DNA of 64,000 bases. Origin: Trichocoleus sp. Lineage in GTDB: Bacteria; Cyanobacteriota; Cyanobacteriia; Elainellales; Elainellaceae. This document shows, piece after piece, positions 29,810 to 35,431 of the stretch. The stretch lies in NCBI GenBank assembly GCA_036702865.1, contig DATNQD010000081.1, forward strand, positions 1-64,000. Reading direction: 5' to 3'. Every line of letters starts with the position of its first letter. The stretch's first letter is position 1. The notes beneath the pieces are model-generated. The model saw only the letters and a program-made list of their open reading frames with translations, did not search any database and was not told the DNA's origin. The position numbers and the translations under genes are program-made.

Positions 29810-31111
29810 TTAAGGGCTGGGTTTGAGGATAACTGCCCGATAAGCATCTGGGGAGAGGTAGCGTTGGGCGGTAGTTTGCAAGTCGATCGCGTCGAGCTGC
29901 TGGATCTGCGCTGGGTAGTTCAGAGCAGGAGTGAGGTCGCCAACCACTGCCTGATAGTAGCCATAAACGCTGCCTCGATCGCTGGGGGTTTCATTACCAA
30001 AGATGTAGCGATTGGCGACTAGAGTGCGGACTCGCTCAATTTCTAATTCGCTGATCAGTTCGGTTTGGAGAGCGCGAATATGTTGGACGATCGCCGCTTC
30101 GACCACTGCTAAATTCTCGACGGGCAATTGAGCCGAGATATAAAACAAGCCTTGCTGCGTGTAGGTCATATTGCTGACCGAAATATTGGAAACTAGCCCC
30201 CGCTCTTCTCTCAAATCACGAATCAGCCGAGCAGTGCGTCCTCTTGCTAGAACAGAGGACAGAACATCAAGAGGGTAGGTTTGAGCCAGATCAACCATAC
30301 CTGGAACACGCCACATCATCACCAGTCTTGCCTGTTGCAGACTCTCATCCACAAACTCTTGACGGCTAATGTCTGTGAAAGGAGCTTCTGGACTGAAGTC
30401 AGGAAAATCAGGTCGATGATTAGGACGTAGTTCTGCCCGAGCCGACTCCGCCTTGGCAAAGCCATCTGCCACAATTTGAATCAACTCCTCAACAGGCAAA
30501 TTGCCAACTGCAACTGCCGTGATCGACTGAGGACGGTACCACATTGCATGAAAATCTCGCATCTGCTGTGGCTTGAGATGTTCGATGACGCTGGTTGGTC
30601 CAAGTACAGGACGACGATAAGGCAAATGCTCAAATCCAGCTTCGATCGATCGAGAAAATGTCCGGCGGCGGGGGTTATCGTCTGAGCGGCGGATTTCTTC
30701 TAACACCACTAGCCTTTCTCGCTCAAAGGCTTCGTCTGGAATCGCGGCATTTAGAACAACCTCAATCTGGAGAGGAGCCAGTTCTGCAAAATCTTGGGGG
30801 GCAGTTGTGATGTAGTAGTAGGTGTAATCTTGGCTGGTTGCAGCATTGGTGACGGCTCCGCGCTGCTCGATCTGTCGCTCAAATTCACCGTTTTCAAGCT
30901 GGGCAGTGCCTTTGAAGATCATGTGTTCAAGGAAGTGAGCCATGCCGTTGATCTCATCTGTCTCAATTGCAGAACCAACGCCCAGCCATAAACTCAAATT
31001 AACGGCATCAACAGGCATTTGCTCGGCAATGATGGTCAAACCATTCGGCAAACGATGAATGGTTGGGTCATTGAGACAGAAAGCGGAGGAACCGATCAAA
31101 GTTGAGGTCAT
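29810..31111 (-). CDS. M16-family zinc peptidase
   Basis: About 433 residues of the pitrilysin/processing-peptidase family. The inverted zinc motif is HFLEH in NGMAHFLEHMIFKGT, and the distal Glu ligand lies in the following helix (ERERLVVLEEIRRSD). The second half-domain carries the family R/Y region (DLREERGLVSNIS). ATG 31111 is taken; a longer frame to 31234 encodes unlike sequence. No signal peptide is evident. Unlike many bacteria it is a single gene rather than a tandem pair of active and inactive subunits. Confidence 0.93.
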   Translation of the reverse strand: MTSTLIGSSAFCLNDPTIHRLPNGLTIIAEQMPVDAVNLSLWLGVGSAIETDEINGMAHFLEHMIFKGTAQLENGEFERQIEQRGAVTNAATSQDYTYYYITTAPQDFAELAPLQIEVVLNAAIPDEAFERERLVVLEEIRRSDDNPRRRTFSRSIEAGFEHLPYRRPVLGPTSVIEHLKPQQMRDFHAMWYRPQSITAVAVGNLPVEELIQIVADGFAKAESARAELRPNHRPDFPDFSPEAPFTDISRQEFVDESLQQARLVMMWRVPGMVDLAQTYPLDVLSSVLARGRTARLIRDLREERGLVSNISVSNMTYTQQGLFYISAQLPVENLAVVEAAIVQHIRALQTELISELEIERVRTLVANRYIFGNETPSDRGSVYGYYQAVVGDLTPALNYPAQIQQLDAIDLQTTAQRYLSPDAYRAVILKPSP

Positions 31112-31287: not shown

Positions 31288-32079
31288 TTAATCTACCCAA
31301 CCCATGTCTGTATCCGAAAGCTTCTTCTCTTGCTCTTTTTCTTTAATAGCATCAGAAGACATTGGGGGAACTGCGCTCGGACGAGTCGGATGATCGAGAA
31401 TGCGGCGTAGTTCTTGTTGATATTTTGGTGGGTTGCCCGGTACTAATTTCCCATCTGCACCCGTAGGTTGATCGAGCTTGATCCGAGAGGCTTCTAGTTC
31501 AGGTTCAGCGGACTGAGCAGACGGAGGCTTCATGGGAGAGAGGGCGATCGGCTGGTAGGAAGAAGGCGCAGAAACCGCTGGAGCCGCTGGAGCCGCTGGA
31601 GCCGGCTTGGCATTCGCTTGAGACAGCTGCAAAATCATTTGCTTTGCTTCTTCTAGCTCTTTTTTTAGCGATTGCGCCTGCTGCACCTCTGTCTGGAGTT
31701 TTTCAATTAGGCTTTGCTGATCTTGCAAACTTGCTTGCAGCGTGGTGATCTGCTGGTTCAAAGCATCTTCCTGCTGCTGTGTCGTTTGTCGCGATGCTGC
31801 CAAAGCCGCTTTTAGTTCAGCAACCAGACCTTCTAATTCCACTTTCGTCGGGCTGGATTTCCGCTGGTGAGAGGGTTCTTCTGGAGAAGCTTCTGGCTCT
31901 ACTGGCTGCGCTGCCTCGGGTGGCTCTGCTTCGGGGGCTGCCTTTGCTGGCTCATTTGCTTTTTCAGCCGCAGGCGCGATCGTTCCTTCAGTCTGCTGAT
32001 TTTCGCTTTGCTCTGAAGCAGCCTCACCCGACTTTTGCGCTTCTTCCCGTAATAGATCTGATAACCGCTTTTTAACCAT
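31288..32079 (-). CDS. Disordered Gln-rich coiled-coil protein, possible McdB (type 2)
   Basis: A 264-residue protein starting at ATG 32079 with GGAGG five bases upstream. Order: a short basic N-terminus (MVKKRLSDLLREEAQKS), a long Ala/Pro/Glu-rich disordered stretch (to about 80), a Gln-rich coiled coil (about 80-160), a Pro/Ala-rich linker with AAP repeats, and a charged C-terminus ending DTDMGWVD. It follows a ParA-type ATPase by 59 bases. Established knowledge: McdB proteins that position carboxysomes are disordered, Gln-rich coiled-coil partners of a ParA-like McdA and keep a C-terminal Trp. All these traits are present, but the call is by architecture only; an unrelated ParA partner is possible. 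Confidence 0.5.
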   Translation of the reverse strand: MVKKRLSDLLREEAQKSGEAASEQSENQQTEGTIAPAAEKANEPAKAAPEAEPPEAAQPVEPEASPEEPSHQRKSSPTKVELEGLVAELKAALAASRQTTQQQEDALNQQITTLQASLQDQQSLIEKLQTEVQQAQSLKKELEEAKQMILQLSQANAKPAPAAPAAPAVSAPSSYQPIALSPMKPPSAQSAEPELEASRIKLDQPTGADGKLVPGNPPKYQQELRRILDHPTRPSAVPPMSSDAIKEKEQEKKLSDTDMGWVD

Positions 32080-32138
32080 GCCTACCTCCAATCCCTCCAA
32101 ATTCTAGCCTTTCCCATCACCGAACACTCAAACCCCAA

Positions 32139-32783
32139 TCACCAATCTCGCTGGATTTCTTCTGCAACCCGCCGATAATCTGCCTCGGCTTCGCGCCCGT
32201 TTCTACCGCGCCACTGAATCATCGACTGTCCTTCTAGCACAGCTCGCTCATGCGCCTTATATGCTCGGATAAAGGCGTGGCAGGCAGGAATTCCCATACT
32301 AAGCAGCGTATTTTGGGCTTCCAGTGCTTCACCCAAACTTCTCGGATCGACGCGCGTTAGTAAAACTCGGTGGCTGACGCCAGAAGGAATGACAGCTTGC
32401 TTCACGGTTTCAATTAAAGCTGATAAATCCATAGGAGCAGGCGGCGTTGGCAACAGCAAATAGTCGGCGGCTGGGATGACCGCAGCAAGTGCTTCAGAAT
32501 TGAGGGCAGGCGGCGTGTCTACTACAACTAGGTCATAGTCTTTTACCTGACGCAACTCTCCCAACAAAGTCGGGTCATTCTCTTGAGCTACATCAAACCC
32601 CAGCCCCCGATCGCTCCGTTCTGCCCACCAGCTTGCTGAACCCTGTGGATCGGCATCAACCAACAGCACACGATAGGTTTCGGCAAAAATTGCGGCTAAG
32701 TTTATGGTCGTCGTCGTTTTGCCCACTCCCCCTTTTCCGTTGAGCACAACCAAGACTTTCGGTGGAGCAGATGACGACTTCAC
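32139..32783 (-). CDS. ParA/MinD-type ATPase, possible McdA (type 2)
   Basis: A 214-residue ParA-family P-loop ATPase. The deviant Walker A is [15 protein letters not shown], with the signature lysine, followed by [16 protein letters not shown] (Walker A') and [12 protein letters not shown] (Walker B). It lacks the N-terminal helix-turn-helix of large plasmid ParA proteins. Start is GTG at 32783 with AGGAAAGG upstream. The next gene on the strand encodes a disordered coiled-coil protein, as in ParA-type cargo-positioning modules. No parB or parS-like sites are nearby, which argues against chromosome partition and for a cargo such as carboxysomes; no carboxysome genes are in the window to confirm it. 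Confidence 0.85.
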
Positions 32784-32885: not shown

Positions 32886-33773
32886 TTAACTGGCAATAAA
32901 GTCCTGAATATAGAATGCGGTCAGGTTTGCCTGCTCTAAATGTGGGACATGACCCGCTTTCTGAACCCAAACTAAACGGCTATTGGGAATGGCTTGCTCA
33001 AATCGGGGCGCGTCTTTGATGCCGAGAATTCGATCGTTTTCTCCCCATAGAATTAGCGTTGGCTGCTGTAGCTCAGCGAGTTGCCGCTTGAAGGAACCAT
33101 AGCCACCACTTTGAGTAAAAGCAATCAGCGCATCCTGCCAACGAGGGTGATCTAAATGAAGTGCTGCACAGCAAGCCGCATCTTCAGAGGCAAAGGTCGG
33201 ATCGTGATATGCCTTCACTGCGATGTTCTGCCGCACTTTTGGGCTTCGCAAAAAATTCGTTGCTCGCTTGCCAATCAGCGGAATGAGATATTTGGCGATC
33301 GGCAATCCGACGGTATACCCGGCACTATCAAGCAGCACCAGCTTTTGCACCGCTTCCGGATAAGTCAGGGCAAAATCGATCGCGGCAGCGCCACCCATTG
33401 AAGCCCCCACCAGCACCATCGGCTGACCGATCCAGGTCTTCCAGCAGTAGTACAGATGCGTTTTAATCGCCAGCGGGCTGAAGCCAATCTGAGCCGGACG
33501 ATCGGTAAAGCCAAACCCCAACAAATCGATCGCCCAGGTTTCTTGATGTTCTGCTACCAGAGGCAACAGCCGCCGGAACTCAAGCACGGAGCTATCAAAT
33601 CCATGCAGCAATACAACAGGCGGACTACCCGTCCCTTTGCGCACAAAGGCTGTGGCGATCGGTTCTTCGCTCAGAGAAGTTTGAATATCCTGACACTGAA
33701 GGTTTTGTGCCAGTGCGATCGAGGTGGCTTCAGCCAGCCGGGTGATAGGGATGTTGAGCGATCGAGTAGTCAT
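32886..33773 (-). CDS. Alpha/beta hydrolase
   Basis: About 295 residues with the full alpha/beta-hydrolase fold. Motifs: oxyanion region VVLLHGFDSS, nucleophile elbow GASMGGAAA (Ser), acid in ILWGENDRI and His in AGHVPHLEQ. The pattern resembles esterases and C-C hydrolases; substrate is unknown. No signal peptide. ATG 33773 is chosen; GAGG lies close upstream. It ends about 100 bases from the ParA-like gene, separated by G-rich repeat DNA. Confidence 0.9.
   Translation of the reverse strand: MTTRSLNIPITRLAEATSIALAQNLQCQDIQTSLSEEPIATAFVRKGTGSPPVVLLHGFDSSVLEFRRLLPLVAEHQETWAIDLLGFGFTDRPAQIGFSPLAIKTHLYYCWKTWIGQPMVLVGASMGGAAAIDFALTYPEAVQKLVLLDSAGYTVGLPIAKYLIPLIGKRATNFLRSPKVRQNIAVKAYHDPTFASEDAACCAALHLDHPRWQDALIAFTQSGGYGSFKRQLAELQQPTLILWGENDRILGIKDAPRFEQAIPNSRLVWVQKAGHVPHLEQANLTAFYIQDFIAS

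Positions 33774-35431
<1,658 letters not shown>

Follow-up and report, generated by a model that had tools for sequence, protein, structure and literature searches.

Two adjacent minus-strand genes at positions 31288 to 32783 of the window, the 64,000-nucleotide stretch of Trichocoleus sp. DNA that we analysed, very probably encode a type 2 beta-McdAB carboxysome-positioning system, in which a ParA-family ATPase (McdA) acts with a partner protein (McdB), its positioning role in this organism being read across from experiments in other species. The pair is another member of a known, widespread system, and its relatives provide a natural experiment on the role of McdB without McdA. The genes and motifs concerned are the following:

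29810 to 31111, minus strand: M16 peptidase directly downstream of mcdB; a syntenic neighbour outside the system that stays beside orphan mcdB in genomes G002, G006 and G017
31288 to 32079, minus strand: mcdB (assigned to beta type 2), 263 aa, starting at an ATG preceded by GGAGG, with 59 bases between it and the upstream mcdA
31291 to 31320, minus strand: McdB C-terminal motif LSDTDMGWVD with Trp261; putative carboxysome binding, a role taken from PMC11321042
31609 to 31845, minus strand: McdB central Gln-rich coiled-coil helix, residues 79-157, from pLDDT, Gln content and heptad register
32032 to 32064, minus strand: McdB N-terminal helix, residues 6-16, within MVKKRLSDLLREEAQK, from the AlphaFold2 model; putative McdA-docking motif by analogy with residues 1-20 of Halothiobacillus neapolitanus McdB (PMC12204374)
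32139 to 32783, minus strand: mcdA (assigned to beta type 2), ParA-family ATPase of 214 aa, Pfam ParA superfamily, GTG start at 32783 and stop at 32139
32709 to 32741, minus strand: deviant Walker motif of McdA, residues 15-25, with signature lysine K17, invariant in a 15-row McdA alignment
32886 to 33794, minus strand: alpha/beta hydrolase directly upstream of mcdA; a syntenic neighbour outside the system

Type 2 McdA has been defined as keeping the signature lysine and having no mid-protein extension, and type 2 McdB as a protein encoded downstream of McdA with a charged N-terminus, a central Gln-rich region and coiled coil, disorder, and a C-terminal tryptophan with aspartate enrichment (PMC8262871 and PMC11321042, each available to us in part). 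A first-pass annotation of this DNA had proposed that a ParA ATPase keeping the signature lysine precedes, by 59 bases, a disordered, Gln-rich coiled-coil partner ending DTDMGWVD, and had read the two as candidate type 2 McdAB; our analysis upholds these elements and adds the strand, minus for both genes. The lysine is K17 of the deviant Walker motif, mcdB lies directly downstream of mcdA on the same strand, and the gap from the mcdA stop to the mcdB start is 59 bases when the partner is read from the ATG at 32079. The mechanical open reading frame opens further upstream, at a TTG at 32100, and the ATG has GGAGGTAGGC before it and opens the conserved MVKKRLSDLLREEA; on these sequence features the longer start is unlikely. 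The large mid-protein extension of type 1 is absent from McdA, which has 214 residues, aligns in 15 rows without a large insertion and has a ParF-sized fold (AlphaFold2 model, pLDDT 80.9).

The partner carries each of the corresponding features. Its N-terminus, MVKKRLSDLLREEAQK, holds five basic and four acidic residues among the first 20, and its C-terminus, LSDTDMGWVD, holds the tryptophan with three aspartates in the last 10 residues. Glutamine accounts for 23% of residues 86-160, against 11% of the protein overall, and the a/d hydrophobicity is 0.5 in the best heptad register. The AlphaFold2 model, built on an alignment of 37 McdB proteins, predicts a helix at residues 6-16 and a single long helix at 79-157, with ten-residue block means of pLDDT of 94-98 over residues 81-150, and is of low confidence elsewhere; pLDDT, taken as a proxy for disorder, falls below 70 in 169 of the 263 residues. 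The published mean disorder of type 2 McdB is 64% by PONDR (PMC8262871, in part). Searched against the PDB, the McdB profile returned generic coiled coils only (best E 2.7e-4).

By analogy with Synechococcus elongatus and H. neapolitanus (PMC6328274; preprint PMC12204374; both available in part), McdA, as a ParF-like ParA ATPase, would bind the nucleoid as an ATP dimer. The C-terminal Trp motif of McdB would let it coat carboxysomes, the central coiled coil would mediate its oligomerisation, and the basic N-terminal helix would touch McdA, stimulating it to hydrolyse ATP and leave the DNA. Carboxysomes would then travel towards higher McdA levels and become evenly distributed over the nucleoid by a Brownian ratchet.

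A search of the same genome for a clearer McdAB pair, the presence of which the first-pass annotation had named as refuting its reading, returned none, with one match to the McdA profile (E <= 1e-40) and one to the McdB profile (E <= 0.01). The other refuting result that it had named, a better match of the partner to another ParA partner family, did not appear either: nothing was above cut-off in Pfam or NCBIfam, where McdB has sub-threshold matches only. The annotation's remark that no ParB lies nearby can be extended to the genome, in which no ParB_N match reaches the Pfam cut-off and one sub-threshold match lies on another contig. With all testable type 2 sequence features present and no second candidate pair, the type 2 reading is supported. 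The pair, on contig C81, sits outside the carboxysome operon: the genome has six BMC-domain matches, and the shell genes are on contigs C84 and C36. A search of this genome for CsoS2, the alpha-carboxysome marker, gave no match, and from this absence, taken with the six BMC-domain matches, the carboxysomes of the host would be of the beta type. A second ParA in the genome (L002, G000:C59:381564-382157; E 1.1e-15; Walker A KGGCSKST) was considered as a rival McdA and rejected, being 31% identical to McdA and having no McdB-like neighbour; by eye, the gene after it encodes a pentapeptide-repeat protein and no partner is obvious.

Across the class, McdA orthologs were found in 191 of 388 sampled genomes (profile, E <= 1e-40) and McdB-profile matches in 231 (E <= 0.01); coiled-coil noise accounts for several of the weakest. 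In a smaller search of 30 genomes that included the genome at hand, McdB was found at E <= 0.01 in 22, which argues that the partner is conserved more than chance would allow, and McdA orthologs at E 1.4e-90 or better were present in this genome and 15 of its 29 relatives. A phylum-wide draw of 116 genomes, for which the share from other classes is not given, produced 23 matches to McdA, none of them outside this class. CsoS2 occurs in 87 of the 388 genomes, all of family f2, and no f2 genome was seen among the McdA or McdB profile matches to those 388, an absence that counts as one event because f2 is one clade. We also searched named genomes with a profile from alignment A3, whose first row is the G165 candidate McdA, and kept the best 80 of at least 431 stretches encoding a relative. 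Picosynechococcus sp. PCC 7117 heads these matches at 100% identity to the G165 McdA, so G165 carries the same protein, and the pair described here is orthologous to that of PCC 7117, which we take to be a relative of PCC 7002. The McdB of PCC 7002 is a type 2 protein that has been studied in vitro (PMC8262871, in part).

Among the best 80 of at least 431 named loci, an ORF with tryptophan in its last seven residues lies right after McdA in 75, under a picking rule that favoured Trp-ending ORFs; at the other five, three have a candidate lacking the tryptophan (one running into Ns) and two have none in range. The McdB alignment (A4) was assembled from proteins picked for the residue, so its Trp column is bound to be invariant. 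McdB-profile matches chosen independently of tryptophan nonetheless carry it within their last four residues in 34 of 34 cases. Two genomes of family f1, genus g17 (G016 and G218, 99% and 95% complete), match neither McdA nor McdB. In family f25, genus g46, loci L156 and L157 have McdA with no McdB detected beside it. In G059, also of g46, the McdB match lies about 0.4 Mb from McdA, indicating that the pair can come apart.

The ATPase considered alone would also suit a DNA-segregation ParA, of chromosome or plasmid partition, working with an unusual ParB-like partner. In a fold search the nearest solved structures to the McdA model are the plasmid or chromosome ParAs 3cwq, ParF and TP228 ParA, and among the 25 best NCBIfam families none exceeds its cut-off, the best being ParA_partition at 134.2 bits against 180. 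A ParA of genome G005 that is 51% identical to McdA (L063, G005:C88:29452-30072) lies by an IS240-type transposase, and the very next gene encodes a ParB_N domain (E 1.4e-12); it appears to be a partition relative of McdA with a different partner, and it shows that the cargo cannot be read from the ATPase alone. It is the partner that makes partition very improbable here: the adjacent gene lacks the ParB_N domain of a ParABS system and any ParB or DNA-binding family match above cut-off, its product is predicted as disorder with one coiled coil, the genome offers no ParB_N match over cut-off, and a Trp-ended partner that persists in genomes lacking the ATPase would be left unexplained by a ParB.

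We give as little credence to a ParA system that positions a different protein cargo, like PomXYZ or those of motility and chemotaxis clusters, and resembles McdAB by convergence. Basic N-termini are general among ParA partners (PMC12204374, in part) and would be expected under such a reading, but convergence sits poorly with the near-terminal tryptophan of all 34 independently chosen McdB matches, with orthology to the PCC 7117 pair, and with the lack of any match in the 87 sampled CsoS2-bearing genomes, though these are one clade. More improbable still is that the genes correspond to the plasmid-type 'McdA/McdB-like' pair of Cyanothece PCC 7424 (PDB 6non, 6noo, 6nop) and not to the type 2 chromosomal system; that ATPase is of the same superfamily and 6noo is named McdA in the PDB, but it matches the McdA profile at E 1.2e-11, more weakly than several plasmid ParAs do, and is 18-21% identical in the fold search. 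We retain the type 2 beta-McdAB reading, and turn to what its relatives suggest about McdB.

Several McdA-less genomes of family f1 still encode McdB. The order hydrolase-McdA-McdB-M16 peptidase is found at 7 of 11 examined loci of McdA-bearing f1 genomes, the exceptions including G004, with the peptidase about 4 kb further on, and G202, with McdA on another contig. At eight McdA-less f1 loci neither the hydrolase nor McdA occurs in the stretch covered, and McdB followed by the M16 peptidase is kept in three (G002, G006 and G017), with G014 cut at the contig start. On a 12-row tree of the M16 peptidase, a single gene whose deep forks are weak, G002 pairs with the McdA-bearing G010 (support 98/94) and G017 with the McdA-bearing G011 (92/90). 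Because the three orphans do not form one group on this tree, it suggests that McdA was lost more than once within f1. Orphan McdB is not itself a new observation, and we rejected that claim: numerous orphans were already reported by MacCready 2020 and in the 2021 alpha-McdAB paper, according to the available part of PMC8406218.

We scored the N-terminal helix with a matrix derived from 27 unique 14-mers of named McdA-bearing proteins that do not end in WLxD. The 37 McdB proteins from McdA-bearing genomes, at least two of which are also in the training set (L160 = L163, L147 = L211), score from 7.1 to 46.4 (median 38.7), and the 22 from McdA-less genomes outside family f31 from -20.9 to -1.3 (median -12.3); shuffled proteins reach 1.1 at the 99th percentile. 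Outside f31, the helix thus appears to go with the presence of McdA, the 37 being separated from the 22. The 42 named WLxD-type proteins with McdA, which were held out of the matrix, have a median of 30.0; one WLxD-type protein with McdA and an uncertain start, L185, scores -2.2, inside the orphan range, and the next lowest scores 7.1. The 22 helix-less orphans fall in families f1, f16, f23, f13 and f4, each of which has McdA-bearing members too, implying at least five losses of McdA if inheritance was vertical. Each of the 22 has the ending (G/S)W(V/F/M/A)D, which was required in ORF picking.

The assignment of genomes to the two states is bounded as follows. In the 37 McdA-less genomes used, with all first-look ParA candidates scored, the best ParA reaches E 1.0e-38; nearly all McdA matches are at E 1e-80 or better, with G082, G155, G263 and G339 weaker, and G319, whose McdA is split over two contigs, was counted as McdA-bearing. 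Ten McdB matches around which no ORF ends in the Trp motif were omitted (G080, G323, G220, G357, G386, G039, G291, G118, G022 and G327); most are probably chance coiled-coil matches, and that of G327 may be a real McdB cut short. Also omitted were G062 (a run of N), G279 (N-terminal part broken by a stop), G014 (N-terminus missing at the contig start) and the weak McdB matches of G025, G036, G094 and G255. At L269 (G080, family f5), a 159-aa McdB-profile match ends PPYLLD, with tyrosine at the expected place of the tryptophan; it may be an orphan that uses a different aromatic residue, or a chance coiled-coil match. The f16 g80 orphans L134, L138, L139, L263, L266 and L268 share a different basic N-terminus, MATQRQRKTP, and in this group pN/pS is 0.29 over the first codons and 0.26 in the rest.

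The Nostocaceae-like family f31, so identified by comparison with named loci, departs from the pattern. The N-terminal helix is kept in all 15 McdA-less f31 genomes scored, with a median of 24.0 against 30.0 in McdA-bearing proteins of the same WLxD type (rank test p 0.024), and in a sixteenth case outside those 15, G139, which scores 22.1. In G349, G371 and G383 McdB is immediately preceded by two decayed pieces of McdA, which lack its middle and in two of these genomes contain stops, so that the loss looks recent there; a remnant search that spanned six f31 genomes found none in the stretch covered in G105, G361 and G388. In L136, L137 and L141, of f31 genus g151, the Walker A end and the C-terminal end are all that remain of McdA (about 2736-2998 in each), and the McdB right after these remnants looks intact. 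Values of pN/pS come from small samples, are suggestive only and do not all favour the adaptor reading proposed below: over alignment columns 2-18 they are 0.23-0.33 in f31 orphans and 0.30 in Nostoc-type proteins with McdA, consistent with continued constraint on the orphan helix, perhaps by another ATPase, and over the last 12 columns they are 0.09 in g93 orphans, 0.20 in g151, 0.29 in other f31 orphans, 0.33 in f16 g80 orphans and 0.14 in Nostoc-type proteins with McdA. These last figures are suggestive of constraint on the C-terminal end in all groups, which in f16 g80 is not tighter than in the rest of the protein (0.26). Retention of the helix in f31 would agree with a motif wholly dependent on McdA only if the losses happened recently or there is another partner.

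Taking these comparisons together, we lean towards a reading of McdB as an adaptor with two ends, each evolving on its own. At the N-terminal end, the (L/I)xDLLREEA helix would be a dedicated McdA-docking motif that vanishes with McdA, and the C-terminal Trp motif would serve an McdA-independent carboxysome function kept by selection. McdA itself would have disappeared from at least five families, more than once within f1; in the f16 g80 orphans the MATQRQRKTP tail would have replaced the helix, and in the Nostocaceae-like family either the losses would be recent or the helix would serve another ATPase. A published parallel exists on the alpha side, where orphan alpha-McdB of type 2 lacks the charged N-terminus (PMC8262871, in part). 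In the literature searched, which was available in part and lay outside MacCready 2020 itself, we found no statement connecting the loss of the N-terminal helix with that of McdA, and the helix loss in McdB of McdA-less genomes may be a new result. Helix-less orphans that keep the putative carboxysome-binding end would constitute ready-made separation-of-function variants, and, if the adaptor reading is true, a present or erased helix would provide a quick sequence test for McdB acting with McdA, for which the f31 exception needs explaining first.

Among known systems, the pair most directly invites comparison with the type 2 pair of Picosynechococcus PCC 7117 (L163), with which it shares gene order, an McdA that is 64% identical, and an McdB with an N-terminal LSDLLR(Q/E)EA, a coiled-coil middle and a C-terminal GW(F/V)D, the PCC 7117 protein having MASSKQNLSDLLRQEA at its N-terminal end and EEIGWFD at its C-terminal end; the McdB middles, in contrast, cannot be aligned in detail, and the proteins are 25% identical, with 191 aa in PCC 7117 against 263 aa here. 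McdA has the same fold as ParF and TP228 ParA of plasmid partition (TM-score 0.78-0.83 on the query), ATPases that, unlike McdAB, work with a ParB-type DNA-binding partner on a DNA cargo. Like the type 1 system of S. elongatus PCC 7942, the locus has two genes and an McdB with a C-terminal tryptophan and a coiled coil (PMC6328274 and PMC8262871, in part), whereas type 1 McdA lacks the signature lysine and carries a large mid-protein extension, where here K17 is present in a protein of 214 aa, and the coiled coil of type 1 McdB is C-terminal, the tryptophan of the S. elongatus protein being the last residue (PMC8262871 and PMC11321042, in part). Although alpha-McdB is short, monomeric and without a coiled coil, ends R(V/I)WPD and serves alpha-carboxysomes (PMC8262871 and PMC11321042, in part), the alpha-McdAB system of H. 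neapolitanus shares with the pair described here the signature lysine of McdA, the basic N-terminal helix of McdB and a tryptophan near its C-terminus.
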